A stretch of DNA of 64,000 bases from Azoarcus sp. CIB (lineage in GTDB: Bacteria > Pseudomonadota > Gammaproteobacteria > Burkholderiales > Rhodocyclaceae), in assembly GCF_001190925.1 (NCBI RefSeq), contig NZ_CP011072.1, positions 2,790,001-2,854,000 of the forward strand, in the 5' to 3' direction. Shown one piece after another: positions 14,655 through 32,268 of the stretch; the stretch's first letter is position 1, and each line of letters opens with the position of its first letter. The position numbers and the translations under genes are program-made. Below the pieces are notes generated by a model that searched no databases, was not told where the DNA came from, and was given only the letters and a program-made list of their open reading frames with translations.

Positions 14655-15221
14655 TTATTTGGCACCGGTAAAGGAATCAGGCCAGTGCACGCGGGCGATT
14701 TCGCCATCACTGCGAAAGGCGTGGCAGCTATTGATCAGCGTTTTCGGATCGCCGACCCGGATCGGCGTCGCGTCACCGCGCGCCGCGTTGCGAATCTGCG
14801 CCGCCCACAAGGTCTGCATCGCCGTCGTCGCCAAGGGACCAAGCAGATCGGTCAGATGGGTGCAGCCCAGTCGTCCGCCAAACAGCCTTTTGACCGCGGC
14901 AGAAAAACCGGCGGCGATACGCAGGCCAAGCAACTGCCGGTAGGTATCGGAGATGTCCCGGCATTCCGGCGACGGTCCGTGGGCCGTCAGCGGCTCGACC
15001 TCGCGGATGATCGAATCCCGATCCACCGTGATGCGCAATCCCATCTGGTGCAAAGGCTCGTTGGCCGCGAGGCGCCCCCCCAAGGGCAGGGGCAATTCAA
15101 AGCTGCGGGTGTCAAGCAACTGCGCCTCGATATCCCACAGGCCATCCTCGCGCTCGTAACCTTCGCAAAGAATGCGGCGGCGATGCAGCAGCGCCCTCTT
15201 CACCGGCGGACTGAAATCCAT
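14655..15221 (-). CDS. DUF2889 family protein
   Basis: A 188-residue protein starting MDFSPPVKRALLHRRRILCEGY; GGGAGAAG about eight bases upstream decides this ATG over one four codons earlier. Conserved-looking segments are GLWDIEAQLLDTRSF, LPLGGRLAANEPLHQMGLRI, TAHGPSPECRDISDTYRQLLG and a cysteine-containing CTHLTDLLGPL. I recognise these as DUF2889, a family without established biochemistry that recurs beside AtuA, ACAD and SDR genes in terpenoid/steroid-type clusters of proteobacteria. No signal peptide or membrane segment, so cytoplasmic. It is the last gene of the 15-22.6 kb operon, 41 bp after the ACAD. Confidence 0.82.
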   Translation of the reverse strand: MDFSPPVKRALLHRRRILCEGYEREDGLWDIEAQLLDTRSFELPLPLGGRLAANEPLHQMGLRITVDRDSIIREVEPLTAHGPSPECRDISDTYRQLLGLRIAAGFSAAVKRLFGGRLGCTHLTDLLGPLATTAMQTLWAAQIRNAARGDATPIRVGDPKTLINSCHAFRSDGEIARVHWPDSFTGAK

Positions 15222-15262
15222 CTCTTCTCCCATCCTGCGTCGCTCGCCCGACCCCGCCGGTA

Positions 15263-16423
15263 TCAATAGGATTTCGGCAAACCCAGCGCCCGCTCGGCGA
15301 TGTGGCACAACACCAGCTCGTGGCTGACCGGACCGATCAGGCCCATGATCGCCTCGCGGTAATAACGCTCGACGTGGAACTCCTTGGCGTAACCGAAACC
15401 GCCGTGGGTCCGCACCGCACGAGCCGCGGACTCGAAGTAGGCGTCGCCGCCCAGATACTTCGCCATGTTGGCTTCGAGGCCGCAGGGCTTGCCCTGGTCG
15501 TACAGGGTCGCCGCCTTGAACATCATGGTCTCCGCCGCCTGCAGGCGAACCCAGCAATCCGCCAGCGGATGCTGGATACCCTGGTTCATGCCGATCGGCC
15601 GGCCGAACACGATGCGTTCCTTGGCGTACTTGGCGGCCTTGTCGATCACCGCCTGGCCGGCGCCGATATTGGTCCCGGCGATCAACACCCGCTCTGGGTT
15701 CAGGCCGTGCAGCAAGTACTCGAAGCCCTTCCCCTCCTCGCCGATGCGGTCCTCGATGGGAATTTCCAGACCGTCGATGAAAAGCTCGTTGGAATCGACG
15801 GCGTTGCGGCCCATCTTGGGAATTTCCCGCACCGTGATCTTGCTGCGATCCATGTCGGTGTAAAACAGGGTCAAACCATCGGTCGGACGCGGAGAATCCT
15901 CGAATTTGGTCGTCCGGGTCACCAGCAGGATCTTGTTGGCGATCTGGGCCGTCGAAATCCATACCTTGGAGCCGTTGACCACGTAGCGGTCGCCCTTGCG
16001 CTCGGCGAAGGTCTTGATGTGGGTCGTGTCGAGGCCGACGTTAGGCTCGGTGACGCCGAAGCAGGTGCGGTCCTTGCCCTCGATCAGTGGCGGCAGGAAA
16101 CGCGCCTTTTGCTCGGGCGTGCCGAACACCACCACCGGATGCGGCCCGAACATGTTGATGTGCACCGCCGACGAGGCGTTGGCGCCAAGCCGCGAGATGC
16201 GCTTGATGATGATCGCCGCCTCGGTGATGCCCAGGCCCGCCCCGCCGTATTCCTGGGGCATGGTCACGCCCATCCAGCCGGCCTTGACCAGGTCGTCTAC
16301 AAACTCCTGCGGAAAACGCTTTTCGTTTTCTGCGCGCAGCCAGTAATTGTCATCGTAGACATCGCAGATTTCGCCGATGGCCGCTTCGATTGCCCGCTGT
16401 TCTTCATTCAACGAAAAATCCAT
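15263..16423 (-). CDS. Acyl-CoA dehydrogenase
   Basis: A 386-residue ACAD starting MDFSLNEEQRAIEAAIGE, with GAGGAG seven bases upstream; the frame is open for another 89 codons but that part is antisense to AtuA-end sequence in a shifted frame and is not real. Motifs: VTMPQEYGGAGLGITEAA (about 56-73), GVTEPNVGLDTTHIKT, NGSKVWISTAQIANK, a GLNPERVLIAG helix with the candidate catalytic glutamate (about 242), and THGGFGYAKEFHVERYYREA. The C-terminus reads GLIGPVSHELVL in place of EGTxEI. It is the neighbour of AtuA, which might suggest a citronellyl-CoA-dehydrogenase-like role (AtuD), but that is only context. Confidence 0.92.
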   Translation of the reverse strand: MDFSLNEEQRAIEAAIGEICDVYDDNYWLRAENEKRFPQEFVDDLVKAGWMGVTMPQEYGGAGLGITEAAIIIKRISRLGANASSAVHINMFGPHPVVVFGTPEQKARFLPPLIEGKDRTCFGVTEPNVGLDTTHIKTFAERKGDRYVVNGSKVWISTAQIANKILLVTRTTKFEDSPRPTDGLTLFYTDMDRSKITVREIPKMGRNAVDSNELFIDGLEIPIEDRIGEEGKGFEYLLHGLNPERVLIAGTNIGAGQAVIDKAAKYAKERIVFGRPIGMNQGIQHPLADCWVRLQAAETMMFKAATLYDQGKPCGLEANMAKYLGGDAYFESAARAVRTHGGFGYAKEFHVERYYREAIMGLIGPVSHELVLCHIAERALGLPKSY

Positions 16424-16449
16424 TTCGTACTCCTCGATAAGTGGTCTTG

Positions 16450-18237
16450 TTATTCCAGCAGCGCCGCCGGCACCCGCACCGGCATGTCCAGCAGCATCTG
16501 AGCGAAAGCCTTGCCCAACGGATCGCTGCGCGGCGACGCCATGCCGCCGCCGGCCAGCGCGCCCTGCAGCAGGAAGTTGAAGGCGCCGACGCCCGGCACG
16601 TCGAAGCGGCTCACCGCCCCTTCGACGAAGTGGCCAAAGTATTCGCGCACCCGCTCCGCGGTGAGTTCCGCGCGCAGCACCCCTATCCATTTCGGATCGC
16701 GGGCGATGACGCCGATATTCACGCTGTTGCCCTTGTCGCCGCTGCGCCCGTGGGCGATGCGCAACAGCGGCACTTCCAACGTGGCCACGTCATCCATCGA
16801 TGGCACAGGCTCGGTGTAGGTTGTGGCGACATGCGCCGTCGTCGTTTCCTGCAACTCGGCGGGAAGCTGGATCGACCAGTGTTCGCCGGCTACCGTTGCG
16901 CTTACCTTGAATTCCGTTTTCGGCGCCAGGAAGGAGAACAACTTGACGATGGGCGACGGGCGCGGACGGCCACCGCCGATGCTGGTCATGCCCGGCGCCC
17001 AGGAAACTGCACCGGGGGCGATTTCGGCGGCGAACAGTTCCAGTGCGTCGCGATTCGCATGCTCGACCACCAGCCGCAGCACCACCTCGCGGCTGACGGC
17101 AATCCGGGAGTGGGGACCGAAAGCGGCTTCGGTGCCGATCACTTCCGAATACACCAGGCGGTAGTCGCCCATCCCGCGCGCTTCGAACATGCGCCGCGTG
17201 CGCGCCAGGATGGCTTCCGCCACCCGCTGCGCCTTGCGCTCCGCGCGCCCGCCGATCAGGGTGATGTTGGCGACGCAGCGCCAGCCGTCGGCGTAGGTCG
17301 CGGAGACCTTGTAGCAGGGGCCGGGCGCGTAGCCGCGCGCGCCCTCCACCAGTACCCGGTCCGGGCCGTCGCCGTTCATGCGCACGGCCGTGAAATCGCA
17401 AATGACATCGGGCAGCAGATAGGCCGCCGGGTCGCCGATCTCGTAGACCATCTGCTCGGCGACGGTGGCCGGCGTGACCAGGCCGCCGGTGCCGGCCGGC
17501 TTGGTGACCACGAAGCTGCCGTCGGACCGGCATTCGACGATCGGATAGCCGATGTTGTCCCAGCCCTCCACCGTCTCCCAGTCGGTAAACAACCCGCCGG
17601 TGGCCTGCGGGCCGCATTCGATCAAATGCCCGGCCAGGCTGCCGGCGGCGAGCAGGTCGTAGTCCCGCGCCGACCAGCCGAACTCGTGCATCAATGCCGC
17701 CAACGGCAGGGCACTATCCACGCAGCGGCCGGTGATCACCACCTGGGCACCGTGCTTCAGGGCCTCGACGATAGGCAAGGCCCCCAGGTAGGCGTTGGCG
17801 CTCATCACCTTGGCCGGCAGCGGCTGCCCCGAGTGGAGGTCCCGGACATCCTCGGCGCGGAAATCGTCGACTCTGGAGAGCACATCGTCGCCCTCGACCA
17901 CTGCGATTCGCAGCGCCAGGCCCTCGGCTTCCGCCAGCCGCTGCAGGGCCTCGGCACAGGCGCGCGGATTGACGCCGCCCGCGTTGCTCAGCACCTTGAT
18001 GCCGCCGGCCACCACCTCGCGCAACACGCTGCGCATGGCGACATCGACAAAATCCCGAGCATACCCTGCCGCCGGATCCTGCGCCCGCGCACGGGACAGG
18101 ATCGACATGGTGAGTTCGGCCAGATAGTCGAACGTCAGATAGTCAAGCTTGCCGCTTCTTACCAACTGAGGCGCAGCCTCCGCGCTGTCGCCCCAAAAAC
18201 CCGAGGCGCCGCCGATGCGCACGATGCGATCCGTCAT
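16450..18237 (-). CDS. atuA: AtuA family protein (acyclic terpene utilisation, DUF1446)
   Basis: A 595-residue protein. N-terminal DUF1446 region (about 5-450): VRIGGASGFWGDSAEAAPQL, LSNAGGVNPRACAEAL, VITGRCVDSALPLAALMHEF, ATGGLFTDWETV, CDFTAVRMNGDGPDRVLVEG and SIGGGRPRPSPIVKLFSF. C-terminal AtuA-like ferredoxin-fold domain (about 490-580): LRIAHGRSGDKGNSVNIGVI. Named after the Pseudomonas atu citronellol/geraniol cluster, where it is required but its chemistry is not established. The other hallmark of that pathway, geranyl-CoA carboxylase (atuCF), is absent from this window. GGAGA lies about nine bases before the ATG. It is co-oriented between MaoC and ACAD genes. Confidence 0.92.
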   Translation of the reverse strand: MTDRIVRIGGASGFWGDSAEAAPQLVRSGKLDYLTFDYLAELTMSILSRARAQDPAAGYARDFVDVAMRSVLREVVAGGIKVLSNAGGVNPRACAEALQRLAEAEGLALRIAVVEGDDVLSRVDDFRAEDVRDLHSGQPLPAKVMSANAYLGALPIVEALKHGAQVVITGRCVDSALPLAALMHEFGWSARDYDLLAAGSLAGHLIECGPQATGGLFTDWETVEGWDNIGYPIVECRSDGSFVVTKPAGTGGLVTPATVAEQMVYEIGDPAAYLLPDVICDFTAVRMNGDGPDRVLVEGARGYAPGPCYKVSATYADGWRCVANITLIGGRAERKAQRVAEAILARTRRMFEARGMGDYRLVYSEVIGTEAAFGPHSRIAVSREVVLRLVVEHANRDALELFAAEIAPGAVSWAPGMTSIGGGRPRPSPIVKLFSFLAPKTEFKVSATVAGEHWSIQLPAELQETTTAHVATTYTEPVPSMDDVATLEVPLLRIAHGRSGDKGNSVNIGVIARDPKWIGVLRAELTAERVREYFGHFVEGAVSRFDVPGVGAFNFLLQGALAGGGMASPRSDPLGKAFAQMLLDMPVRVPAALLE

Positions 18238-18277: not shown

Positions 18278-19129
18278 TCAGCGCAGCAAGGCACAACCGT
18301 TGTCCAGAACCTTCACCCCCCGTTCCTTGCTCCTGGCGCGAAACGACAAGGTCTGCCCGTCGCGCCAGCTTTCGAAGACCAGCGTTTCTCCCGGATAGAC
18401 GGGCGCCGAGAAGCGGGCGCGGACACTCGCGATGCGCGTGGCGTCGTAGTCGCACCAGGTCTTGAGCAGGGCATGGACCGCCAGGCCGTAGCTGCACAGT
18501 CCGTGGAGGATGGGACGCTCGAAGCCGGCCCGGCGGGCCAGTTCGGGGTCGGCATGGAGCGGGTTGGTGTCGCCGTTCAGGCGGTACAGCAATGCAGCCT
18601 GGGGCAGCGTCGCCAGCTCGGTCGTGCGCTGGGGTTCGCCCTCCGGCACGGCGTGCGCCGGACCGGCTTCACCGTGGGACGCACCGTTGCCACCGTCGCC
18701 GCGGCACATCAGGGTCGCGTTCAGCACCGCCAGGGGCTCACCGGTCGCGTCGTCGACGATGTGGCGCTCGGTGCGCAGCAGCGTTCCCTTGTCGCGCCCC
18801 TTGTCCAGGATCGCGACGACGCGCTCCCGCGCCCGCACGGTGGCCGCCGTCGGCAGGGGACGCAGCAGCTCCAGCGCCTGTTCCCCATAGACGATCTTGC
18901 GGAAGTCGATGCCCGCAGCGGGATCGGTTACGTAGGGGCCGGGATGTCCCAGCACCACGGCCATGCTAGGCACGACCATCAGGTCCTTTTCGTATACATA
19001 GCGCAATTGGCCGGCATCGGTCGGATCGCCGCCAAAACCCACGCTGAGGGCGTACAGCAGGGTATCCCGCACCGTATAGGTCTGGACCACATCCCGGAAC
19101 GGCCATGCGAGCAGACGATCGACGTTCAT
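18278..19129 (-). CDS. MaoC-like (R)-specific 3-hydroxyacyl-CoA dehydratase, double hot-dog type
   Basis: A 283-residue protein with an N-terminal degenerate hot-dog unit (about 1-130; VRDTLLYALSVGFGGDP) and a C-terminal catalytic unit with the hydratase-2 motif YRLNGDTNPLHADPELA followed by GFERPILHGLCSYG; D and H of the motif are the catalytic pair. This is the layout of the hydratase-2 domain of multifunctional enzyme type 2 and of steroid-pathway ChsH-like hydratases. It would hydrate 2-enoyl-CoA to the (R)-3-hydroxyacyl-CoA. It lies between AtuA and an SDR that could oxidise the product. Confidence 0.92.
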   Translation of the reverse strand: MNVDRLLAWPFRDVVQTYTVRDTLLYALSVGFGGDPTDAGQLRYVYEKDLMVVPSMAVVLGHPGPYVTDPAAGIDFRKIVYGEQALELLRPLPTAATVRARERVVAILDKGRDKGTLLRTERHIVDDATGEPLAVLNATLMCRGDGGNGASHGEAGPAHAVPEGEPQRTTELATLPQAALLYRLNGDTNPLHADPELARRAGFERPILHGLCSYGLAVHALLKTWCDYDATRIASVRARFSAPVYPGETLVFESWRDGQTLSFRARSKERGVKVLDNGCALLR

Positions 19130-19147
19130 TCCGAATCCCCTTGCCGC

Positions 19148-19921
19148 TCAGGCGCTCATGAATCCGCCGCCATCGGCGGAGATCACCTGGCCGGTGATGT
19201 AGGACGAAGCCTGGGACAGGAAGAAGCAGATCGGTTGGGCGGCTTCCTCGACGGACGACCAGCGCCCCATCGGGATGCGTGCCAGCAGACCCTCGCGGAA
19301 TTTTTCTCCGCGCACCGTTTCCGTCATCGCCGTTTCGACCACCCCGAAGCAGATGGCGTTGGAACGGATGTCGTGCTTGGCCCACTCGCGGGCGGCGCTC
19401 ATGGTGATCCCGAACATTCCCGACTTGGCGGCGCTGTAGTTGATCTGCCCGATCGTCCCCATGCGCCCCGCATCGGAAGATATGTTAACTATGGAACGCC
19501 GCGCCGACTGGCCGGCCTTGATCTGCGCCAGGGCGGCGCGACCGAAAGCCTGGACGCAGTAATAGCTGCCAGTGAGATTGACGTCGACGACCTGCCGCCA
19601 TTGCTCGTCGGTCATTTTCTCGATCATCGCCGGACGGATGATGCCCGCACTGTTGACCAGCCCGTGCAAGGTGCCGAAACGCGCCGCAGCGCGGTCGAAG
19701 GCGTCATTGACGAAACCACCGTCAGCGACACTGCCGGCGCAGGTCATCACCCGCTCGGCCGCGTAGTCGCGGGCAGCCGTCCGCAGGAGTTCGTCCTGCA
19801 GGTCGATCAGCACGAGGGAGGCGCCCAGCCCGTAGGCCAGGTCCGCGACCGCCTTGCCGATACCCTGGGCGGCACCGGTGACGACGATGGTTTGACCTTC
19901 CAGGCTCATTGGATTAATCAT
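19148..19921 (-). CDS. SDR dehydrogenase (3-oxoacyl reductase/3-hydroxyacyl-CoA dehydrogenase-like)
   Basis: A 257-residue classical SDR: TGAAQGIG cofactor loop, NSAGI (about 87-91), catalytic SSDAGRMGTIGQINYSAAK with intact S-Y-K, and a C-terminus TGQVISADGGGFMSA. AGGAA precedes the first ATG; a second ATG four codons in (MSLEGQ) is possible. NAD or NADP use cannot be decided with certainty (IDLQ after the second strand favours NAD). It follows the PECR-like SDR by 39 bp and precedes MaoC, suggesting it oxidises the MaoC product. Confidence 0.9.
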   Translation of the reverse strand: MINPMSLEGQTIVVTGAAQGIGKAVADLAYGLGASLVLIDLQDELLRTAARDYAAERVMTCAGSVADGGFVNDAFDRAAARFGTLHGLVNSAGIIRPAMIEKMTDEQWRQVVDVNLTGSYYCVQAFGRAALAQIKAGQSARRSIVNISSDAGRMGTIGQINYSAAKSGMFGITMSAAREWAKHDIRSNAICFGVVETAMTETVRGEKFREGLLARIPMGRWSSVEEAAQPICFFLSQASSYITGQVISADGGGFMSA

Positions 19922-19960
19922 GATCGTTCCTGAATGTTGGGTTGCACGGATCGAAGCACA

Positions 19961-20836
19961 TCACCCCCTCGCCAGCTTGGGCGGCGTAGACAGATGGAAT
20001 CCGTCATAGACGGGCGAGGTGGTTTTCCTCGCCGGCAGGGTGTAATTGGGCGTGGCCATGGCGAAGGCACCGTCGATGCAGATCGTCGCGCCGGAAATGT
20101 AGGCGGCGCCCTCGGACAGCAGGAAGACGATGGCTGCCGACACTTCGGCCTCGGTCCCCGTACGCCCCAGCGGCACGTCGTTCTTGAAGCGCAGCAGCCG
20201 CTCCTGGATGGCCGGCGGATAGCTATCGACGCCGGACGAGAACACCAGACCCGGCGCAACCGCGTTGACGCGCACGTTGGCGGCACCCCACTCCAGCGCG
20301 GCGGTCATGGTGAAATTGACCATTCCGGCCCGGGCCGCGCCGGAATGGGCCATCTCGGGCATGCCGTTCCACATGTCGGCAGCCATATTCACGATCGCGC
20401 CGCCATGCTCCTGCATCCACTGCAGATAGCATTCCCGGGCCATCAGGAAGCCGCCAGTGAGGTTGGCGCTGATGACCGCCTCCCAGCCATTTTTCGAGAT
20501 GCGTTCCAACGGCGTCGCATATTGGCCGCCAGCGTTGTTGACCAGGTGGTCGATACGGCCGAAGCGCTTGATCACGCCGGCGACGAGTTCGCGCACACCC
20601 TCCTCGTCGCGGATGTCGCAGGCATAAATCTCGGCATCCGCCCCGCCATCCAACAGTTCGCCGCGGACTTTCTGAAGCTTCTCGGCATCGCGTCCGACAA
20701 TGGCGACCCTCGCGCCCAAGGACGCCAGTTCATGGGCCGTGCAACGGCCGATGCCGCTGCCGCCGCCGGTGACGATGGCCACCTGCCCGGCAAACAGGCC
20801 GGGACGGAAAACCGAACGATATGAATTTGTACTCAT
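19961..20836 (-). CDS. SDR of the trans-2-enoyl-CoA reductase (PECR) type
   Basis: A 291-residue SDR starting MSTNSYRSVFRPGLFAGQ, with GGAGG six bases upstream; the frame continues 52 codons upstream without support. Rossmann motif TGGGSGIG (about 23-30) and NNAGGQ (about 101). The catalytic region is atypical: MAHSGAARAGMVNFT has no YxxxK. The same HSGAARAG sequence is the signature of the mammalian peroxisomal trans-2-enoyl-CoA reductase PECR. The matching FRPGLFAGQVAIVTGG N-terminus also fits. It would reduce 2-enoyl-CoA with NADPH, an odd reaction in an oxidative operon unless it removes a ring or methyl-branched double bond. Confidence 0.87.
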   Translation of the reverse strand: MSTNSYRSVFRPGLFAGQVAIVTGGGSGIGRCTAHELASLGARVAIVGRDAEKLQKVRGELLDGGADAEIYACDIRDEEGVRELVAGVIKRFGRIDHLVNNAGGQYATPLERISKNGWEAVISANLTGGFLMARECYLQWMQEHGGAIVNMAADMWNGMPEMAHSGAARAGMVNFTMTAALEWGAANVRVNAVAPGLVFSSGVDSYPPAIQERLLRFKNDVPLGRTGTEAEVSAAIVFLLSEGAAYISGATICIDGAFAMATPNYTLPARKTTSPVYDGFHLSTPPKLARG

Positions 20837-20984
20837 CTCTTCCTCCATAATCTGCTTGACGCTGGCATCCGACTGGATGAACCGGTCCGAGATACGACCT
20901 GCAACAAGACCTTCGACCCGAGACCATGTTGCCGACAAGTTGCAAGGAACCCGTCGTCGAAAGCGACAATCTTCAACGACCTGT

Positions 20985-21794
20985 TCATGCACCGCGCCAG
21001 ACCGGCGGACGCTTTTCCATGAAGGCGGTCACGCCCTCCTTCACGTCATCCGTGCCCTGAGCCAGCGTCAGGTAGTGCTGCAACAGGACGAGCGCACTCT
21101 CCAGGGACAGATCCTGGGTTTCGAAAAGGGCCCGCTTGCCCAGCTTGAGCATCAAGGGAGATTTGGCGGCCAGCCGTTGCGACCAGTCGGTCACCGTTTC
21201 GGCGAAGCGATCAGCGGCGACCACCCGGTTAACGATGCCGAGTTCCAGCGCCTCCTCGGCGGTCAATTGATCGCCGAGGAAAACCAGCTCCGACACCCGC
21301 TTGCGCGGGATGTTGCGCAGCATCAGCGTGGAAATCATGAACGGGAAGACGCCCACGTTGATCTCCGGGGTGCCGACGCGGATGCCTTCCTTGGCGAGCA
21401 CCAGATCGCAGGCCATCGCCAGCCCCATACCTCCGGCCAGGGCATGGCCGCTCAAGGCGCACAGGATCGGCACCTTGAGCTTCATCATCGCTTCGATGAC
21501 GCCGGGGAAGCGGCCGTTGCGGGCGTGCTTGTCGAGGAGGCTTTCCTCGGCGGCGAAGCCCTTGAGATTGCCGCCGGCGGAAAAGACCTTGTCATGGGTC
21601 GAGGCGAGCACGACGCAGCGCGCCGCCGGCTCGTTCTCGACCCGCGCCAGCGCCGCGAGGAGACCATCGACCAGTTCGTCGTCGATGGCGTTGCGCGACG
21701 CCGGCCGGTTGAGCGAAACGGTCACCACCCCGTGGCTGTCCAGGGCGTACAGGACCGCATCGGCGTCAGCCGGGGAAACATGTTGTCCGAGCAT
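20985..21794 (-). CDS. Enoyl-CoA hydratase (crotonase with both catalytic glutamates)
   Basis: A 269-residue crotonase. HDKVFSAGGNLKGFA and LSGHALAGGMGLAMACDLVL form the oxyanion hole, and both hydratase glutamates are in place: GTPEINVGVFPFMIS and VSELVFLGDQL. Among the crotonases here this is the best candidate for a genuine (S)-specific enoyl-CoA hydratase. AAGGAGG lies seven bases before the ATG. It is second in the minus operon that begins with the BadH-like SDR at 22563. A 148-bp gap separates it from the PECR-like gene. Confidence 0.92.
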   Translation of the reverse strand: MLGQHVSPADADAVLYALDSHGVVTVSLNRPASRNAIDDELVDGLLAALARVENEPAARCVVLASTHDKVFSAGGNLKGFAAEESLLDKHARNGRFPGVIEAMMKLKVPILCALSGHALAGGMGLAMACDLVLAKEGIRVGTPEINVGVFPFMISTLMLRNIPRKRVSELVFLGDQLTAEEALELGIVNRVVAADRFAETVTDWSQRLAAKSPLMLKLGKRALFETQDLSLESALVLLQHYLTLAQGTDDVKEGVTAFMEKRPPVWRGA

Positions 21795-21813
21795 CGATGG
21801 CCTCCTTCGGCGC

Positions 21814-22563
21814 TCAGGCCATCGTCAGCCCGCCACTGACGGACAGCGTCTGCCCCGTCACGTAGCCGGCCCGTTCGGAAGCCAGGTAGACCACCGCGGC
21901 GGCGATGTCCTCCGGCTCGCCGAGGCGGCCGAGGGGCACGGACTTGACCATGGATTCGAGCAGCTTGGCGTTGGTCGGGTCCACCACCGACTCGAACCCC
22001 GGCGTCCGGGTCGGGCCGGGGCACACCGAATTGGCGGTCACGCCCTTGCGCGCCACTTCCCGCGCCAGCGTCTTGGTGAAGGAAATGATCGCGCCCTTGG
22101 CGCCGGAATAGACGGCCTCGAAGGAAGATCCCACCCGGGCGGCATCCGAACTGATGCTGATGATCCGCCCCCACTTGCGCTCCAGCATGCCGGGCAGGAC
22201 CGCATGGATCAGGCGCAAGGTCCCGAGGTAGTTGATATCGACCACTTTCTGCCAAAACGCCTCGTCGGTGGCGGTAAAGGGCTTCAGCTCATCCCAGCCG
22301 GCGTTGTTCACCAGCACGTCGACCGCCCCCAGTTCATCCACGGCCCGCTTCAGCGCGGCCTGCACCGACGCCGAATCGGCCACATCGAGCGGCACGAACA
22401 AGGCCTTGCCGCCGCCCTTGCGGATCAACTCGACCGTTTCGTTGCCTTCGGGCTCGCGCAGGTCGCCCACCGCGACGGCATGGCCGCTTTCCGCCAGGGC
22501 AATTGCAATCGCGCGGCCGATGCCCCGCCCGGATCCACTTACAAACGCTACTTTTTGAGTCAT
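21814..22563 (-). CDS. BadH-like SDR (2-hydroxycyclohexanecarboxyl-CoA dehydrogenase-like)
   Basis: A 249-residue SDR starting MTQKVAFVSGSGRGIG (AAAGGA about 11 bases upstream; 12 further in-frame codons lack a site). The sequence DVLVNNAGWDELKPF, then VLPGMLERKWGRIISISSDAARVGSS, VYSGAK and VTANSVCPGPTRTP resembles BadH of Rhodopseudomonas benzoate/cyclohexanecarboxylate degradation, including the NNAGWD tryptophan and the GLTM C-terminus. Catalytic S-Y-K is intact. BadH oxidises 2-hydroxycyclohexanecarboxyl-CoA to the 2-keto form cleaved by BadI; a BadI-like gene lies at 10.6 kb. It is the first gene of its operon. Confidence 0.87.
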   Translation of the reverse strand: MTQKVAFVSGSGRGIGRAIAIALAESGHAVAVGDLREPEGNETVELIRKGGGKALFVPLDVADSASVQAALKRAVDELGAVDVLVNNAGWDELKPFTATDEAFWQKVVDINYLGTLRLIHAVLPGMLERKWGRIISISSDAARVGSSFEAVYSGAKGAIISFTKTLAREVARKGVTANSVCPGPTRTPGFESVVDPTNAKLLESMVKSVPLGRLGEPEDIAAAVVYLASERAGYVTGQTLSVSGGLTMA

Positions 22564-22635
22564 TTCGGTTTTTCCTTTGGTTGATGACATGAGAACCACA
22601 CCGACGCCAGATTAGGGAGTCGGCGAGTATTTGGA

Positions 22636-22799: not shown

Positions 22800-24257
22800 A
22801 TGTCCACGACCCGAGCATTCGGCATCACCGGTTTTGGCGGCTATATTCCGCGTTTGCGCATGCAACGCGCGGCGATTGCCGCGGCCCACCAATGGATGGC
22901 CCCCGGCCTGCGCTCCCAGGCCAAGGGTCGACGGGCCTTTTGCAGTTGGGATGAAGACAGCATCACGCTGGCGGTCGAAGCGGCCCGCGACGCACTGGCG
23001 AACCGCCCGCGCGAGGCGATCGCCTCGCTCACCCTGGCTTCGACGACGCTGCCCTTCGCCGACCTGCAGAACAGCACCATCGTGGCCGGCGCCCTGGGGC
23101 TGGCGCCGTCGGTGCGCACCCTCGACGTGGGGCACTCGCAGCGCGCCGCCACCAGCGGACTGATCGCCGCCCTGCGCCAGTGCGACGCACCGGCGTTGTT
23201 CATCGCGAGCGATCGTCCGCGCGGCAAGCCGGCCAGCAGCCAGGAGATCGGTTTCGGTGCCGGCGCCGCCGCGTTTACGCTCGGCAGTGACGAAGTCATC
23301 GCCACCCTGCTCGCCTCCACCAGCCGCACGGCATTGTTCGTCGACCACTTCCGCAGCGAGGGCGCCCGCTACGACTATTACTGGGAAGAGCGCTGGGTCC
23401 GCGACGAGGGCTATATGAAGCTGGCCGTCGAGGCGGTAAGGGCCGCGTTGCAGCAAGCCGGGGTTGCGGCGGCCGCTGTCGATCATTTCATCCTGGCGGC
23501 GCCGTTCAAGGGCGTCGCTGCGGCGGTCATCAAGAAACTCGGCATCGTTCCGGAAGCGGAGAGCGACAGCCTCGAAACCGACTGCGGCTACAGCGGCGCA
23601 GCCCACGGCCTGCTCATGCTCGCCCATGCGCTGGAGCGGGCCAAACCCGGCCAGACCCTGGTTCTGGTCGGCTTCGGCCAGGGTGTCGACGTGCTGGTGC
23701 TACGCACCACCGAAGCCCTTGCGTCGTTCGCACCGCGCCGCGGCGTCGGCGGCGCCTTGGCCGACGGACAGAACCACGACGCCTACCTGCGCCTCGCCTC
23801 CTATGAAAATGCAATCGAGCTGGAATGGGGCATGCGTGGCGAGAAATCGATCAAGACCGCGCTCACCGAGCAATATCGCTCCGGCGATCAGCTCTCCGGC
23901 TTCGTCGCCGGACGCTGCAGCGCTTGCGGCACCATCCAGTTTCCACAATTGCCTTACTGCGTGACCCCCGGCTGCAACGCGCCGCGTGCGAACTTCGATC
24001 CGCATCCGCTGTTCGACGAGCCCGCCCAGGTCCTCACCCACACCGGCGACTGGCTCAGCTATCACCCGGCACCACCGCTGTACGTCGGTTTCGTGCAGTT
24101 CGAACAGGGCGCGCGCCTGCTCATGGAAATGGTCGATGTCGGCGCTGCCGGTCTGGAAGTGGGCACACCGCTGCGCATGGTGTTCCGCGTCAAGGATATC
24201 GACAAGACACGCGGCTATCCGCGCTATTTCTGGAAGGCCACGCCACTTCAGGCTTGA
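22800..24257 (+). CDS. HMG-CoA synthase-fold protein fused to a DUF35 Zn-ribbon/OB domain
   Basis: A 485-residue fusion. Residues about 5-350 have the KASIII/HMG-CoA synthase fold (FGITGFGGYIPRLRM start, internal duplication at about 205-300, LVGFGQGVDVL). Residues about 365-480 are a DUF35 module: Zn-ribbon cysteines at 373, 376, 387 and 392 (CSAC...YCVTPGC), then an OB fold (VLTHTGDWLS). By eye, HMGCS catalytic positions are not conserved: LDVGHSQRAAT has Q114 where the nucleophilic cysteine is expected, and AAPF occurs where HxPF carries the histidine. It directly precedes a thiolase gene, resembling the archaeal thiolase/HMGCS/DUF35 complex with two parts fused. Whether it is catalytic is open. 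Confidence 0.85.
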   Translation: MSTTRAFGITGFGGYIPRLRMQRAAIAAAHQWMAPGLRSQAKGRRAFCSWDEDSITLAVEAARDALANRPREAIASLTLASTTLPFADLQNSTIVAGALGLAPSVRTLDVGHSQRAATSGLIAALRQCDAPALFIASDRPRGKPASSQEIGFGAGAAAFTLGSDEVIATLLASTSRTALFVDHFRSEGARYDYYWEERWVRDEGYMKLAVEAVRAALQQAGVAAAAVDHFILAAPFKGVAAAVIKKLGIVPEAESDSLETDCGYSGAAHGLLMLAHALERAKPGQTLVLVGFGQGVDVLVLRTTEALASFAPRRGVGGALADGQNHDAYLRLASYENAIELEWGMRGEKSIKTALTEQYRSGDQLSGFVAGRCSACGTIQFPQLPYCVTPGCNAPRANFDPHPLFDEPAQVLTHTGDWLSYHPAPPLYVGFVQFEQGARLLMEMVDVGAAGLEVGTPLRMVFRVKDIDKTRGYPRYFWKATPLQA

Positions 24258-24271
24258 GGAGAGATCATTTC

Positions 24272-25477
24272 ATGGCAACGGGAATCAAGGACAAGGTCGC
24301 CATCATCGGCATGGGCTGCTCGAAATTCGGCGAACGCTGGGACGTCGGCCCCTCCGAATTGCTGGCGGAAGCCTTCGAGGAAGCCCTGCTCGATGCGGGC
24401 ATCGAACGTAAACAGATCGAGGCGGCCTGGTACGGCTCCTGCTCCGATCCGATCAGCGTCGGCAACTCGGCCATCCCCGCCTCGATGGCGCTGCGGCTGG
24501 ACGGCATTCCGGTGAGCCACATGGAAAACATGTGCGCCACCGGCAGCGAGGTGCTGCGCGCCGCCGCCTATGCGGTGGCCAGCGGCGCGGTGGATTTCGC
24601 CCTGGCGATCGGCGCGGAGAAGCTCAAGGACACCGGCTACGGCGGCCTGCCTTTCGTCTACAAGGGAACCTTCAACGACCTGTGGCTTCCCCTGGGCTCG
24701 ACGCCGGCCGGCTTTGCCCAACTGGCCGCCGGCTACCGGGCCAAGCACGGCACCAGCAAGGAAGATCTGAAGCGGGCGATGGCCCACGTTTCATGGAAAA
24801 GCCATCAGAACGGAATGCTCAGTCCGAAGGCCCATCTGCGCAAGGCGGTCAGCATGGAGCAGATCCTCGGCGCCCCCATGATCGCAGACCCGCTCGGCCT
24901 CTACGACTGCTGCGGGGTCAGCGACGGCGCCGCGGCAGCGATTGTCACCACCCCCGAAATCGCCCGCGCCCTGGGGCGCAAGGACATGGTCACGATCAAG
25001 TCCATCCAGTTGGCGATCGGTTCCGGCGTCGAGTCGGGCACCTCCCAGTGGGACGGCAGCTATGTGCGCACCACCCGGGCGGCGGCGCAAAAAGCCTACG
25101 CGGAAGCCGGCATCAAGGACCCTCGCTCGGAACTGAGCCTGATGGAAGTGCACGACTGCTTCTCGATCACCGAACTGTCGACGATGGAGGATCTGTTCGT
25201 GTCTCCCGACGGCGGCGCGGTGCACGACATCCTCGACGGCTTTTTCGACCGGGATGGCGGCCTGCCCTGCCAGGTGGACGGCGGGCTCAAGTGCTTCGGC
25301 CACCCGATCGCCGCCTCCGGCCTGCGCATGGCCTATGAAATCTACAACCAGTTGCAGGGACGGGCCGGCGAGCGGCAGTTGAGCAATCCGAGCATCGGCC
25401 TGACCCACAACCTGGGCGGCGTACCCTATCTCGGCATCGCCGCGATTTCCATTCTCGGCCTGCACGGCGGCAAATGA
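24272..25477 (+). CDS. SCP2-type thiolase (acetyl-CoA C-acyltransferase-like)
   Basis: A 401-residue thiolase starting MATGIKDKVAIIGMGCSKFGERW; GAGGAG lies ten bases upstream and overlaps the end of the preceding gene. Catalytic features: ENMCATGSEVLRAAAYAVAS with nucleophilic cysteine (about residue 89), HDCFSITEL, CFGHPIAASGLRMAYE with the active histidine, and THNLGGVPYLG. It belongs to the SCP2/archaeal thiolase branch that works with DUF35 partners, as in BbsAB and the archaeal acetoacetyl-CoA complexes. The DUF35 partner is fused in the neighbour 15 bp upstream. It ends in an ATGA overlap with the CoA-transferase gene. Confidence 0.9.
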   Translation: MATGIKDKVAIIGMGCSKFGERWDVGPSELLAEAFEEALLDAGIERKQIEAAWYGSCSDPISVGNSAIPASMALRLDGIPVSHMENMCATGSEVLRAAAYAVASGAVDFALAIGAEKLKDTGYGGLPFVYKGTFNDLWLPLGSTPAGFAQLAAGYRAKHGTSKEDLKRAMAHVSWKSHQNGMLSPKAHLRKAVSMEQILGAPMIADPLGLYDCCGVSDGAAAAIVTTPEIARALGRKDMVTIKSIQLAIGSGVESGTSQWDGSYVRTTRAAAQKAYAEAGIKDPRSELSLMEVHDCFSITELSTMEDLFVSPDGGAVHDILDGFFDRDGGLPCQVDGGLKCFGHPIAASGLRMAYEIYNQLQGRAGERQLSNPSIGLTHNLGGVPYLGIAAISILGLHGGK

Positions 25478-26730
25478 ACCACGCCCTCTCCGCCGATCGC
25501 CTGGCCGACATTCTGGCGCCCGGCGCATCCGTGTATGTGCCGGGCGGGATCGCGGTACCCGTCGCTTTTCTCGCCGACTTGCAGAACCGGCCGGAGCGCA
25601 GCCGCGATCTGCACATCCTGACCAGCATCGCGCCCGGCATCGACATCCCCTTCGACGTCGATAGACTCCATCCCAGTGCCGTCGTCAGCGGCCTGTTCAT
25701 GCAGCCGGCGTTGCGCGAGGCGCAACGCGCCGGGCGTTATCGCCTGCTGCCCATGAGCTACGGCGGTTTCGTGCGCCACCTGCAGGACAACGCGAACTTC
25801 GACCTGAGCGTGTTCCAGGTCACCCCCCCGGATGCGGCCGGCAATTGCTCCCTCGGACCGTCCGTGGAATTCCTGCCGCTGGCCGTGCGCCAGAGCCGCC
25901 AGTTGCTGGCCTTGATCAATCCGCGCCTGCCGCGCATCCCGGGCGCCGCCGCCTTACCTTACGATCGCTTCGATTACGTCTGCGAGATCGACTCGGCGCT
26001 GCCCGAGTACCGCACCGACACCGACGAGCCGACCCGCGCCATCGCCCGCCACATCGCGGCGCTGGTGGAGGATGGCAGCACCTTGCAGATGGGACTGGGC
26101 AAGGTGCCCACCGCACTGGCCGGCGCCTTGCGCAATCATCGGCGCCTGCGGCTGTTTTCCGGCATGCTCTCCGACGGCATGCGGGAACTCGCCGAGGCCG
26201 GAGCGCTGGACCTCGACTTCGCCCATACCGCCTGCGTCGTCGCCGGCAGCCGCGACCTCTACGCCTGGGCCACCGGGTTCGCGCCGCTACGCGTACTCGG
26301 CTGCGAAGTGACCCACGATGCACGCACCCTGCTCGCCCAGCACCGCTTCGTCGCGGTCAATTCGGCCCTCGAAGTGGATCTGTTCGGCCAATGCAACCTG
26401 GAACACGCCGAAGGCCAGGCGGTCAGCGGTGCCGGCGGCGCCCCGGACTTCGCCCGGGCGGCCCGTCTCGCAGCCAAAGGCAGCAGCATCGTCGCCCTCA
26501 ACGCCACCTACAAGCGCGGCGCCGCTTCGCGCATCGTGCCCTGCCTGGGGGACCTGTCCATTTCATCGCTGTCCCGCATCGACGTCGACCTGGTGGTCAC
26601 CGAATTCGGTGTCGCCGATCTGCGCGGCGCCAGCGTCCACCAAAGAGCGCAGGCCCTGATCGGCATCGCCGCGCCGACCTTCCGCGCCACCCTGCAAGAA
26701 GCCTGGGATGCCTTCGCGCAGCGTCTCTGA
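25474..26730 (+). CDS. Acetyl-CoA hydrolase/4-hydroxybutyrate CoA-transferase family protein
   Basis: A 418-residue class I CoA-transferase. ASVYVPGGIAVPVAFLADL opens the N-terminal half; LQMGLGKVPTALAGAL and LRLFSGMLSDGMREL follow. The active-site segment NSALEVDLFGQCNLEHAEG carries the glutamate that forms the acyl-glutamyl anhydride in this family. The C-terminus RIDVDLVVTEFGVADLRGAS is diagnostic. Its ATG overlaps the thiolase stop by four bases, so production is coupled. It would move CoA between an acid intermediate and acetyl- or succinyl-CoA, or recycle the acid released by the thiolase step. Confidence 0.92.
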   Translation: MNHALSADRLADILAPGASVYVPGGIAVPVAFLADLQNRPERSRDLHILTSIAPGIDIPFDVDRLHPSAVVSGLFMQPALREAQRAGRYRLLPMSYGGFVRHLQDNANFDLSVFQVTPPDAAGNCSLGPSVEFLPLAVRQSRQLLALINPRLPRIPGAAALPYDRFDYVCEIDSALPEYRTDTDEPTRAIARHIAALVEDGSTLQMGLGKVPTALAGALRNHRRLRLFSGMLSDGMRELAEAGALDLDFAHTACVVAGSRDLYAWATGFAPLRVLGCEVTHDARTLLAQHRFVAVNSALEVDLFGQCNLEHAEGQAVSGAGGAPDFARAARLAAKGSSIVALNATYKRGAASRIVPCLGDLSISSLSRIDVDLVVTEFGVADLRGASVHQRAQALIGIAAPTFRATLQEAWDAFAQRL

Positions 26731-26783
26731 ATCGTCGCTTCCGACGGTGAAAGTCTACGGCCCACCGCCCTAAATTGTCGTTT
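26730..26783. promoter_or_regulatory. Candidate regulatory region upstream of fadB
   Basis: Two elements lie in the 92-bp gap before fadB. AATCGTCGCTTCCGA at 26730-26744 is identical over 15 bases to a site at 40700-40714 upstream of the ETF-QO gene. TGTCGTTT at 26776-26783 is the inverted half of the ATCGTCC-type element. fadB may therefore have its own promoter inside the plus-strand cluster. Confidence 0.42.
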
Positions 26784-26822
26784 GTCCCGGCCCAAGGTCC
26801 GACCCCAACAAGGAGAATCGTT

Positions 26823-28973
<2,151 letters not shown>

Positions 28974-29013: not shown

Positions 29014-29796
29014 ATGAAACTCGATTCCACTCTATCGGCCGTCGTCACCGGCGGCGCCTCCGGACTCGGCGCCGCCGTGGCCCGCCGGCTCGCCGCACAA
29101 GGCGTCAAAGTCGCGTTGTTCGATCTCAACGAGACCCTCGGCGAAGCCTTGGCACGGGAAATCGGCGGCCTCTTCTGCACGGTCAACGTCACCGACGAGG
29201 CACAAGTCGATACCGCCTTCGCCAAAGCCCGCGCAGCCCACGGGCAGGAACGCATCCTGGTCAACTGCGCCGGCATCGGTGGTGCGGCGAAGACCGCCAG
29301 TCGGGACAAGGCCAGTGGCGAGACCCGGCACTTTCCGCTGGATCTCTTCGAACGGGTTATCCAGGTCAACCTGATCGGCGCTTTCCGCTGCATCGCCAAG
29401 GCGTCCGCCGGCATGCTCACGTTGCCCCCGCTCGAGGACGGCGAGCGCGGCGTCATCGTCAACACCTCCTCGGTCGCGGCCCAGGACGGGCAGATCGGCC
29501 AGGCCGCCTATGCAGCCTCGAAGGCCGCCATCGTCGGCATCACCCTGCCGGTCGCGCGCGACCTGATGAACGACGGCATTCGCATCAATACCATCATGCC
29601 GGGGATTTTCGACACCCCGCTGCTACAAGGCACCCCCGACAACGTGAGGGAGGCCCTGGCCGCTTCGGTCCCCTTCCCCAAACGCTTCGGCCGCCCCGAC
29701 GAATTCGCCGCGGTCGCCGAGACCATGATCACCACCACCTACTTCAACGGCGAATCCGTTCGTCTCGACGGTGCGATCCGCATGTCGCCCCGCTGA
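29014..29796 (+). CDS. HSD10-like SDR (3-hydroxyacyl-CoA dehydrogenase type II)
   Basis: A 260-residue SDR starting MKLDSTLSAVVTGGASGLG, with AAAGGA about nine bases upstream. LFDLNET after the second strand favours NAD. NCAGIGGAAKT, HFPLDLFERVIQVNLIG, TSSVAAQDGQIGQAAYAASK (intact S-Y-K) and IMPGIFDTPLLQG match 17beta-HSD10/type II 3-hydroxyacyl-CoA dehydrogenases, which oxidise 2-methyl-3-hydroxyacyl-CoA and steroid alcohols. The C-terminus lacks the usual GG motif and reads FNGESVRLDGAIRM, also HSD10-like. It lies between fadB and a thiolase in the same operon. Confidence 0.93.
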   Translation: MKLDSTLSAVVTGGASGLGAAVARRLAAQGVKVALFDLNETLGEALAREIGGLFCTVNVTDEAQVDTAFAKARAAHGQERILVNCAGIGGAAKTASRDKASGETRHFPLDLFERVIQVNLIGAFRCIAKASAGMLTLPPLEDGERGVIVNTSSVAAQDGQIGQAAYAASKAAIVGITLPVARDLMNDGIRINTIMPGIFDTPLLQGTPDNVREALAASVPFPKRFGRPDEFAAVAETMITTTYFNGESVRLDGAIRMSPR

Positions 29797-29844: not shown

Positions 29845-31023
29845 ATGGCTGAAGCATATATCGTCGCCGCGGTACGCACCGCCGGCGGCCGCAGGGGAGG
29901 ACGCCTGTCCGGCTGGCACCCGGTCGAACTGGCGGCAACGGTTCTCGACGCCCTGCTCGACCGCAGCGGGATCGACCCGGCCGCGGTCGAGGACGTCATC
30001 ATGGGCTGCGTGCAGCAGGCCGGCGAGCAATCCAACAACATCGGCCGCAATGCGGTGCTCGCCTCGCGCCTGCCGGAATCCGTGCCCGGCACCACGCTGG
30101 ACCGGCAGTGCGGCTCGTCGCAGCAGGCCCTGCACTTCGCCGCGCAGGCGGTGATGTCCGGCACCATGGACGTGGTGATCGCGGCGGGCGTGGAAGCGAT
30201 GAGCCGGGTGCCGATGTTCGTGCCGCAGAAACTTGCGCTGGAGAACGGCCTCGGCGAATACATGAGCCCGGAAATCCGCCGGCGCTATCCCGAGGGCGAT
30301 TTCAGCCAGTTCATCGGCGCGGAACTCATCGCCCGCAAGCACGGATTCTCCCGCGACGACCTGGAACGCTTCGCCTACGCAACCACCCAGAAGGCAATCG
30401 ACGCCACCCGCGCGGGGCGCTTCGCCGACGAAATCCTGCCCGTCGAGGTGCGCCTCGCCGACGGCACGCGGCCCGGCGAGCAGCATACTGTCGACGAAGG
30501 CATCCGCTTCGACGCGACGCTGGAAAGCATCCACGCCGTCAAGCTGCTGACCGAGGGCGGCAGCATCTCCGCGGCGACCGCCAGCCAGGTCTGCGACGGC
30601 GCCAGCGGCGTCATGGTGGTCAGCGAACGCGCCCTCAAGACCCTCGGCCTGACGCCCCTGGCCCGGGTGCACCACATGAGCGTACTGGGCGGCGATCCGT
30701 GGATCATGCTCGAAGCCCCGCTGGCGGCCACGGAAGCAGCACTGCGCAAGGCCGGCATGAAGATCGGCGACATCGACCTGTACGAAGTCAACGAAGCCTT
30801 CGCGCCGGTGCCGCTGGCTTGGTTGAAAGCCATCGGGGCCGATCCCGAGCGCCTGAACATAAATGGCGGAGCGATCGCCCTGGGCCATCCCCTCGGGGCT
30901 TCCGGCACCAAGCTGATGACCACCCTGATCAACGCCCTCAAGCAGCGCGGCAAGCGTTACGGTCTGCAGACGATGTGCGAAGGTGGCGGCATGGCCAACG
31001 TCACCATCATCGAACGCTGCTGA
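29845..31023 (+). CDS. Acetyl-CoA acetyltransferase/3-ketoacyl-CoA thiolase (FadA-like)
   Basis: A 392-residue classical thiolase. Nucleophile Cys89 in TLDRQCGSSQQAL, NEAFAPVPLAW, His348 in ALGHPLGASG, and the second cysteine (378) in MCEGGGMANV; all three active-site blocks are complete. The position downstream of fadB and the HSD10-like SDR makes it the likely beta subunit or final thiolase of the pathway. A second, SCP2-type thiolase 5 kb upstream presumably handles a different, branched or ring-derived substrate. GGAGAAAC lies upstream of the ATG. Confidence 0.94.
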   Translation: MAEAYIVAAVRTAGGRRGGRLSGWHPVELAATVLDALLDRSGIDPAAVEDVIMGCVQQAGEQSNNIGRNAVLASRLPESVPGTTLDRQCGSSQQALHFAAQAVMSGTMDVVIAAGVEAMSRVPMFVPQKLALENGLGEYMSPEIRRRYPEGDFSQFIGAELIARKHGFSRDDLERFAYATTQKAIDATRAGRFADEILPVEVRLADGTRPGEQHTVDEGIRFDATLESIHAVKLLTEGGSISAATASQVCDGASGVMVVSERALKTLGLTPLARVHHMSVLGGDPWIMLEAPLAATEAALRKAGMKIGDIDLYEVNEAFAPVPLAWLKAIGADPERLNINGGAIALGHPLGASGTKLMTTLINALKQRGKRYGLQTMCEGGGMANVTIIERC

Positions 31024-31757: not shown

Positions 31758-32222
31758 TCAGAGCGTGAACTCCTCGACCAGTTGCACCAGATTCCCGTCA
31801 TGATCATGGAACAGGAACGACTTAAGCCGCCCGCCGCCCACCGCCCAAACGTAGCCGGTCTGTGTTTCGTAACCCGCTGCACGGATGGTCTGAAACCATT
31901 CATCGATGTTACTCACGCGCAAGGCCAGTTCCCTGATACCGGTATGGTCATAGCCTAGATACTCCCTCGGGGTCTGGCGCACCCGAGGGTTCTCGGGCTG
32001 CTGCAATTCAAGCTTGGCTCCCGTGGGGGAAGTCAGCATGACCATGCGCGACCGCGCGCCACTAACGTGAAAGATATCGTCCAGTGTGTCTTGGGAAAAG
32101 AGAGCCTCATCCTTGTCGGGAATGACCGTATCGATGTACGGCGAAAAGCCCAAGATATCCCGGTACAGCCCCAGCGCCTGGTCCATGTCACTGACCACCA
32201 AGCACATATGATGGAAATCCAT
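31758..32222 (-). CDS. VOC (glyoxalase-like) family protein
   Basis: A 154-residue single VOC module starting MDFHHMCLVVSDMDQALGLYRDILGF; a GGAG lies about ten bases upstream, and the longer frame overlaps the RND gene without support. Candidate metal ligands are H5, the E of KLELQQPENPR, the H of GYDHTGIRELALRVSN and the E of LFHDHDGNLVQLVEE, an H/E/H/E set as in glyoxalase I or epimerases. It is the last gene of the envelope cassette, 46 bp after the RND transporter. Substrate unknown. Confidence 0.88.
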   Translation of the reverse strand: MDFHHMCLVVSDMDQALGLYRDILGFSPYIDTVIPDKDEALFSQDTLDDIFHVSGARSRMVMLTSPTGAKLELQQPENPRVRQTPREYLGYDHTGIRELALRVSNIDEWFQTIRAAGYETQTGYVWAVGGGRLKSFLFHDHDGNLVQLVEEFTL

Positions 32223-32268
32223 CGCGCAATCTCCTCTGCAACGTCGAACCTGACGCAAGACCCTTTCT

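Follow-up and report, generated by a model that had tools for sequence, protein, structure and literature searches.

A proposed non-catalytic HMG-CoA synthase-fold/DUF35 partner of an SCP2-type thiolase in Azoarcus sp. CIB

Results

Our analysis concerns a 64,000-nucleotide stretch of the Azoarcus sp. CIB genome, hereafter the window (contig NZ_CP011072.1, positions 2,790,001 to 2,854,000 of the forward strand; the genome, G000, is one contig of 5.26 Mb). It encodes a chain in which a fold of the 3-hydroxy-3-methylglutaryl-coenzyme A synthase (HMGCS) type is joined to a DUF35 domain, and directly downstream an SCP2-type thiolase. The two genes and the domains of the first are as follows, in window coordinates.

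22800..24257, + strand: HMGCS-fold/DUF35 fusion, 485 amino acids (open reading frame, family profiles, PDB matches, 52 relatives)
22815..23729, + strand: HMGCS-fold part by pairwise match, about residues 6-310 (PDB, profile search)
23868..24248, + strand: DUF35 domain, about residues 357-483 (Pfam, profile matches)
23916..23975, + strand: zinc-ribbon cysteines C373, C376, C387 and C392 (window sequence, family alignment)
24272..25477, + strand: SCP2-type thiolase of the PRK06157 family, 401 amino acids, with Cys88, His294, Cys296 and His344 (NF004810, alignment)

The open reading frame (ORF) at 22800-24257 has a gene-like pattern of GC content by codon position (0.68/0.52/0.81), and relatives of the fusion are encoded at 52 other loci with 39-97% identity over the best segment; it is therefore a real gene. 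Aromatoleum toluvorans (L022) is the nearest named relative for the region, with a fusion that is 97% identical. The fusion is under purifying selection, the ratio of nonsynonymous to synonymous substitution rates (dN/dS) over five pairs being 0.13-0.20 for the HMGCS part and 0.07-0.17 for DUF35.

The first-pass annotation, made by a model from the DNA letters and a list of ORFs, had described a single HMGCS-fold/DUF35 chain of this length, and the ORF, the family profiles and the PDB matches all agreed with it. Residues 7-309, the HMGCS part, matched NF003274 (E 2.2e-46, score 158.5) and TIGR00748 (E 3.2e-32, score 112.1) below their curated cut-offs of 244 and 353, respectively. In single-sequence searches of the PDB, this part matched 6esq_I, an archaeal HMGCS (E 1.6e-23), and PhlA, 5m3k_A (E 1.4e-22). 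A profile was also built from 47 of the 53 rows of the family alignment (the window and its 52 relatives), leaving out L015 and L022, which are near-identical to the window, and the partial rows L051, L052, L054 and L055, and trimming L049 and L050 to their first part. With this profile, PhlA-type structures were closest (PhlA and its homologue 9skh; 6e-50 and 6e-49), followed by archaeal HMGCS (1.5e-41). The HMGCS match of the profile extends to position 335-340 and DUF35 begins at 357, so there is little linker between the two domains.

For DUF35, the single sequence scored just below the Pfam cut-offs (zf-ChsH2, 22.7 against 23.2; OB_ChsH2_C, 22.9 against 27.1), and profile positions 357-483 matched 6esq_E, the DUF35 chain of the archaeal complex (1.4e-11), and PhlB (9.8e-9). 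The window protein has both the four zinc-ribbon cysteines and the OB fold of DUF35, and at least four cysteines were found in the zinc-ribbon stretch in 39 of the 53 rows. Three of the four zinc cysteines are lost in the Caulobacter-type fusions and in a Haliea sp. fusion (L038), and L052 has none of them; the rows with such losses are L038-L043, L045-L048, L052, L053 and L056, and the HMGCS fold and the thiolase are retained there. In plasmid records the fusion is variously annotated as 'OB-fold domain-containing protein', 'zinc ribbon domain-containing protein', '3-oxoacyl-ACP synthase III C-terminal', 'HMG-CoA synthase' or 'hypothetical protein'.

The HMGCS catalytic sites were located by pairwise PDB alignment with 6esq_I as the reference, and their occupancy was read from the 53-row family alignment.

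23043..23045, + strand: Thr82, at the site of HMGCS Glu82 (Cys83 in PhlA); Glu in 0 of 50 rows with a residue
23139..23141, + strand: Gln114, at the site of the HMGCS nucleophile Cys114 (Gly115 in PhlA); Cys in 0 of 51 rows with a residue
23496..23498, + strand: Ala233, at the site of HMGCS His238 (Gln242 in PhlA); His in 0 of 53 rows
23343..23411, + strand: segment 182-204 (DHFR...DYYWEERWVRDEG), a signature of the close family (family alignment)

By eye, Gln114 and Ala233 had already been placed at the nucleophile and histidine sites, and both positions proved exact; the glutamate site is Thr82. None of the 53 rows has Glu, Cys or His at site 82, 114 or 233, respectively, where a residue could be read. 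Position 114 is occupied by Gln (41 rows), Leu (5), Thr (4) or Ala (1), with two gaps; position 82 by Thr (48), Val (1) or Asp (1), with three gaps; and position 233 by Pro (28), Ala (21), Gly (2) or Ser (2). A wider set of 25 fusions was assembled from 13 of the 53 rows and 12 plasmid fusions (L063 and L104 not included), and it spans Pseudomonadota, Actinomycetota, haloarchaea and records titled Desulfobacterales, Gemmatimonadetes and Labilithrix. In this set Glu was absent from all 25, Cys from all 24 with a residue (one gap), and His was seen in two (Haladaptatus L092 and Sphingopyxis L069). All three residues were present in each of the four true HMGCS proteins aligned alongside. Cys262, which the first-pass annotation had named as the residue whose placement in the active site would overturn its reading, was ruled out as a substitute nucleophile, since position 262 is not conserved across the 53 rows (Cys 25, Met 12, Val 11, Ile 3, Gly 1, gap 1). 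No match to HMG-CoA reductase or to HMG_CoA_synt_N was found in this genome; with no HMG-CoA reductase match, it offers no mevalonate-pathway setting.

Ten positions of segment 182-204 (D182, D192, Y193, W195, E196, E197, R198, W199, R201 and E203) are invariant in the 52 rows with a residue. The archaeal HMGCS chain has no equivalent of seven of them (D192, Y193, W195, E196, E197, R201 and E203). HMGCS does share D182, R198 and an aromatic residue at 199, so the motif is partly ancestral. The segment is less conserved in distant fusions (E196 in 21 of 25, E197 in 20, Y193 and E203 in 17 each).

The thiolase gene starts 14 nt past the stop of the fusion, and its product exceeds the curated cut-off of NF004810 (623 bits against 403). 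By PDB match it is nearer to SCP2 and archaeal thiolases (1e-44) than to PhlC (4e-14), and it matches BbsB at 1.6e-36. Thiolase catalysis relies on a nucleophilic Cys, the His and Cys of an HDCF motif and the His of a GHP motif. Here, every one of the 53 rows has Cys88, and all 52 with a residue at the next two sites have His294 and Cys296; His344 is present in each of the 50 rows whose reading extends past it (L020 and L046 stop short, and in L015, which is truncated by its contig end, a misaligned Tyr stands there). L063 was left out of a table of thiolase residues as it has no annotated gene, and its thiolase was located by tblastn. The dN/dS of the thiolase was 0.02-0.03 over four pairs; a fifth value, 0.34 for L015, was excluded, as the contig end cuts that gene short and causes a misreading. 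By this measure the thiolase evolves several times more slowly than the HMGCS part, and the values are compatible with a maintained domain that changes faster than its catalytic partner.

The coupling to the thiolase, also claimed beforehand, holds well beyond this genome. A thiolase was found at all 52 fusion loci and lies directly downstream in 51 of them, with a gap of -4 to 186 nt; in the exception, L054, 1,730 nt separate the two and contain a dehydrogenase match. We also searched 398 genomes drawn evenly from Pseudomonadota, the source genome included, scoring up to four candidates per genome. The fusion profile (E 1e-20) matched 11 genomes, one of them (G376) only partially and weakly, and the thiolase family was above its cut-off in 10 genomes, the same 10 that carry a full-length fusion. 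Nine of the 11 full-length fusion genes in this draw adjoin the thiolase. Among closer relatives, 12 of 41 genomes matched (own genome included), 10 nearly full-length and two in the DUF35 part only.

Plasmids extend this distribution. A thiolase relative adjoins the fusion, by annotation or tblastn, in all 14 plasmid fusion records that were fetched, in varying gene settings; the hosts are Sphingobium, Novosphingobium, Paraburkholderia, Diaphorobacter, Azoarcus, Sphingopyxis, Rhodococcus, Streptomyces and four haloarchaea. In the unannotated record L100 the thiolase was located by tblastn, in L063 it lies in two pieces in different frames, and the L097 fusion was recognised through the domain alignment and tree. 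The thiolase precedes the fusion in the haloarchaeal fusion records. The HMGCS/DUF35 architecture is thus no curiosity of one genome, occurring in several phyla and in some archaea, and fusion and thiolase form a stable unit across several phyla.

The same parts also occur in other arrangements. On a Natrinema halophilum plasmid (L093:4992-7539) an HMGCS-like protein, DUF35 and a thiolase are three genes with 1-base overlaps, the last two recognised by Pfam and the first placed by alignment, tree and tblastn. In two Desulfobacterota (L049:7998-10745 and L050:5183-7933), HMGCS fold, DUF35, short-chain dehydrogenase and SCP2 make up one chain of 915-916 residues, with a MaoC hydratase gene upstream and the thiolase gene downstream. 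This architecture places the protein at the last steps of a beta-oxidation-like cycle, and the finding that parts separate in one genome are fused in another points to physical assembly. The tree of HMGCS domains was poorly resolved, with split and fused haloarchaeal forms as neighbours. The Natrinema HMGCS-like protein reads SQRA at the nucleophile motif, like many proteobacterial fusions. A Priestia megaterium plasmid (L094:2492-5270) carries a triplet of PhlA-like protein (no Cys), thiolase and DUF35, a possible PhlABC-type acylase outside the pseudomonads.

Discussion

Based on these observations and on related systems, we predict that the 485-residue chain is probably the subunit without catalytic function in a heteromeric catabolic thiolase encoded by two genes, fusion and thiolase together being one two-part degradative enzyme. 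The HMGCS fold would be a pseudo-synthase, and catalysis would fall to the thiolase alone. The most likely reaction would be a CoA-dependent (retro-Claisen) cleavage, its substrate being a 3-oxoacyl-CoA, bulky or branched, that the enzymes encoded nearby (ligase, acyl-CoA dehydrogenases, hydratases and dehydrogenases) supply. The DUF35 part is predicted to dock on the thiolase, as in the archaeal thiolase/HMGCS complex, PhlABC, Ltp2-ChsH2 and Sal-Shy. The pseudo-synthase would hold the assembly together and may form part of the CoA/acyl cavity, like PhlA and the inactive MaoC domain of ChsH2. Docking through DUF35, cleavage by the thiolase and the extended cavity are proposed because of homology with PhlABC, Shy/Sal and ChsH2/Ltp2. 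The suggestion of a scaffold in the first-pass annotation is thereby favoured, and a non-catalytic HMGCS fold has already been described in PhlA.

PhlABC of Pseudomonas protegens (PpATase, PDB 5M3K) is among the closest parallels, combining an HMGCS fold without Cys and Glu, a DUF35 protein and a catalytic thiolase fold. According to the available part of its description, PhlA is non-catalytic, with Gly115 and Cys83 at the HMGCS Cys and Glu sites; only PhlC residues act in acyl transfer, PhlA and PhlB being needed for the complex; activity requires expression of the whole operon; and a single cavity is lined by all three proteins (PMC6392133). The same three component types are encoded together in the window as in PhlABC and the archaeal complex. 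However, PhlABC consists of three separate chains and C-acylates phloroglucinols, whereas HMGCS fold and DUF35 are one ORF here. The archaeal acetoacetyl-CoA thiolase/HMGCS/DUF35 complex (PDB 6ESQ) has the same components by homology, but in the accounts available to us its HMGCS is active (Glu82, Cys114), separate from DUF35 and biosynthetic (PMC6392133, PMC12329534).

A fused DUF35 that tethers a thiolase-fold enzyme is also found in ChsH1-ChsH2-Ltp2 and Shy-Sal, where, as the accessible text relates, hydratase-domain-fused DUF35 binds the thiolase-fold partner (PMC12329534, PMC11321319). ChsH2 pairs an inactive MaoC domain with DUF35; the steroid rings bind the inert domain and DUF35 binds the aldolase (PMC11321319, available part). 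In both systems, unlike the window, the fused domain is a MaoC hot-dog fold and not an HMGCS fold. Sal differs further in its altered Tyr302 and Cys304 and its retro-aldol cleavage, whereas the window thiolase keeps the Cys/His/Cys/His set. The benzoylsuccinyl-CoA thiolase BbsAB (PDB 7PXP) is like the window pair in being a catabolic thiolase dependent on DUF35, but to our knowledge it has no HMGCS-fold partner.

Several findings weigh against the proposed explanation. Many DUF35 domains bind thiolases without any HMGCS domain. The single window sequence scores archaeal HMGCS slightly higher than PhlA, and the tree leaves the placement open, so that a PhlA-like ancestry of the fusion is not established. 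The zinc cysteines of DUF35 are gone in 13 of the 52 rows that read the stretch (11 Caulobacter-type rows, L038 and L052). In the 398-genome draw, the G186 fusion has no thiolase inside 1.5 kb, and in G323 fusion and thiolase lie near the ends of different contigs. Finally, the old active-site region may do more than hold a complex, since segment 182-204 and Thr82/Gln114/Arg115 are highly conserved.

In a stronger, overlapping form of our proposal, which we regard as possible and put forward tentatively, the pseudo-synthase would serve mainly for specificity, and its emptied site would hold the bulky acyl part of the substrate during cleavage of the CoA end by the thiolase. The inert MaoC domain of ChsH2, which takes the steroid rings, sets a precedent (PMC11321319, available part), as does the contiguous PhlA/PhlB/PhlC cavity (PMC6392133, available part). 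The conserved, non-catalytic residues at the old pocket and the handling of bulky substrates by clusters such as the estradiol-type cluster in L070 are consistent with such a chamber. The invariance of segment 182-204 is the main reason to keep a catalytic role in view. Glu, Cys and His might have been traded for a new set in DHxR...DYxWEERWxRDEG that carries out a second reaction beside the thiolase, such as decarboxylation, C-C hydrolysis or acyl transfer, the second step on the acyl-CoA using a cavity shared with the thiolase. The ten invariant positions, seven of them without an archaeal HMGCS counterpart, speak for this. However, the three shared with HMGCS mark the motif as partly ancestral, it erodes among the 25 varied fusions although the pairing persists, and the rate of evolution of the HMGCS part is several times that of the thiolase. 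A new chemistry in this fold, as the first-pass annotation had offered beside a scaffold, is also not needed because the thiolase keeps its full residue set, and we consider it unlikely. If it were nevertheless true, fusion and thiolase would be a two-reaction C-C-cleaving machine found across bacteria.

Two further explanations would dispense with a joint degradative enzyme. Large catabolic clusters also place unrelated steps side by side, and fusion and thiolase, which lie apart in G186, could work separately in the same pathway. Yet their order and adjacency persist where other neighbours change, they co-occur one to one, both fused and split forms exist and there are structural precedents for assembly, and we therefore judge mere coincidence to be quite unlikely. 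The homology of all three components with the 6esq complex would fit a true HMG-CoA synthase, or a complex that channels acetoacetyl-CoA in the archaeal manner. This reading is nonetheless extremely improbable, as the scores lie under the HMGCS family cut-offs, and HMG-CoA synthesis was rejected on the loss of all three catalytic residues and the lack of HMG-CoA reductase in the genome.

Parts of the picture are already known. The 2010 paper on the SSO2064 structure listed fusions of DUF35 homologues with members of the thiolase superfamily, short-chain dehydrogenases, SCP2 and hot-dog dehydratases, and termed PhlA an inactive thiolase-superfamily member; neither a fusion of HMGCS type nor its association with another, active thiolase is mentioned in its available part (PMC2954200). 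DUF35 fused to thiolase-superfamily members and inactive HMGCS folds beside thiolases (PhlA) are thus known. Among the matches listed from the openly licensed literature, no HMGCS/DUF35 fusion is named, and none describes such chains as a family, their constant association with an active thiolase or the role proposed here.

The proposal bears on the 17beta-estradiol (edc) degradation cluster of Novosphingobium (Caenibius) tardaugens, in which EGO55_13555 is annotated as an HMG-CoA synthase and no pathway step could be assigned to it (PMC7793797). Like the fusion, EGO55_13555 adjoins a thiolase gene, EGO55_13550. Plasmid p3 of Novosphingobium sp. ES2-1 (L070) has the same gene order as the edc cluster: acyl-CoA dehydrogenase, short-chain dehydrogenase, fusion relative, thiolase, two hydratase-type genes, a hypothetical gene, a lipid-transfer protein, an OB-fold protein and a P450, with an EdcC-type oxidoreductase and two VOC proteins encoded divergently. 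At the place of EGO55_13555 stands a 32%-identical fusion relative whose DUF35 OB domain is above the Pfam cut-off and which lacks all three HMGCS residues. By this gene order, EGO55_13555 is likely, though not proven, to be a pseudo-synthase and thiolase partner. This is a possible answer to the question raised by the annotated synthase in the estradiol cluster (PMC7793797). The available part of PMC12507874, on estrogen pathways, adds nothing on the fusion protein, and that of the tomatine paper PMC10653915 makes no mention of the searched terms around the Sphingobium fusion genes.

Recognition of the fusion as a non-catalytic partner of the adjacent thiolase would correct current annotations. 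An inactive HMGCS fold with DUF35 would join a known theme, in which inert domains are recruited for bulky substrates. The proposal also predicts that thiolases paired with fusions may be inactive when expressed alone, like the separately expressed Phl proteins (PMC6392133, available part).

Third gene and surrounding cluster

The gene behind the thiolase was also considered.

25474..26730, + strand: 4-hydroxybutyrate-CoA-transferase-like protein, 418 amino acids, with Gly230 in place of the family Glu (family scan, alignment)

Its start overlaps the end of the thiolase gene by ATGA, as the first-pass annotation had pointed out; the general linkage to a CoA-transferase implied there was not found. 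Such a gene is directly behind the thiolase in 6 of the 52 loci and elsewhere in the locus in two more; in L011 the contig end truncates a partial match that follows the thiolase, and the gene also follows in the plasmid records L063, L064 and L104. A CoA-transferase as a constant third partner is ruled out by this presence in a minority of loci, and the gene is an optional accessory of the pair. The Glu of the HTEM motif is the catalytic residue of Family I CoA-transferases. Gly230 (window 26161-26163) occupies this site, with Gly in all 11 relatives that read it, and the CoA-transferase label is doubtful because of this replacement. The third-gene proteins are a branch of the 4-hydroxybutyrate CoA-transferase family without the catalytic residue.

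A family scan of thirty window proteins, from 3073 to 42533, covered the surroundings. The genes nearest to the three described above are listed below.

26775..28973, + strand: FadB-like hydratase/3-hydroxyacyl-CoA dehydrogenase (family scan)
29014..29796, + strand: short-chain dehydrogenase (family scan)
29845..31023, + strand: conventional thiolase, PRK06504 family (family scan)
18278..22599, - strand: divergent block of five genes, kept in L005, L006, L015 and L022
18278-19129, - strand: MaoC-type hydratase of the divergent block (family scan)
19148-19921 and 19961-20866, - strand: two short-chain dehydrogenases of the divergent block (family scan)
20985-21794, - strand: enoyl-CoA hydratase of the divergent block (family scan)
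21814-22599, - strand: short-chain dehydrogenase of the divergent block (family scan)

The scanned proteins include an AMP-dependent ligase, several acyl-CoA dehydrogenases, enoyl-CoA hydratases, short-chain dehydrogenases, FadB and a second thiolase, together with AtuA-family and MmgE/PrpD proteins and a DUF1302/DUF1329/MMPL block. A MaoC protein among them has an MFE-2-type N-terminal hydratase domain. No oxygenase was found among the thirty proteins, unless one counts a glyoxalase-family protein (31758-32303), which belongs to a superfamily with dioxygenase members. The set of MaoC protein, short-chain dehydrogenase and SCP2-type thiolase is similar to the peroxisomal pathway that handles 2-methyl-branched and bile-acid acyl-CoAs. 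Because of this resemblance, our guess is that the substrate of the cluster may be bulky or methyl-branched, possibly a terpenoid or alicyclic acid; nothing on it was found among the literature matches listed.

Two other gene groups lie in the vicinity. Between 32269 and 40355 the window carries MMPL transporter, YCF48-like, DUF1329 and DUF1302 genes and then a tyrosine-phosphatase gene, and some of these genes also accompany the fusion on plasmids of Azoarcus KH32C, Diaphorobacter and Paraburkholderia. On the - strand, DUF2889 and AtuA-family genes (14655-18237) stand beside the cluster and are kept together in L005 and L022.

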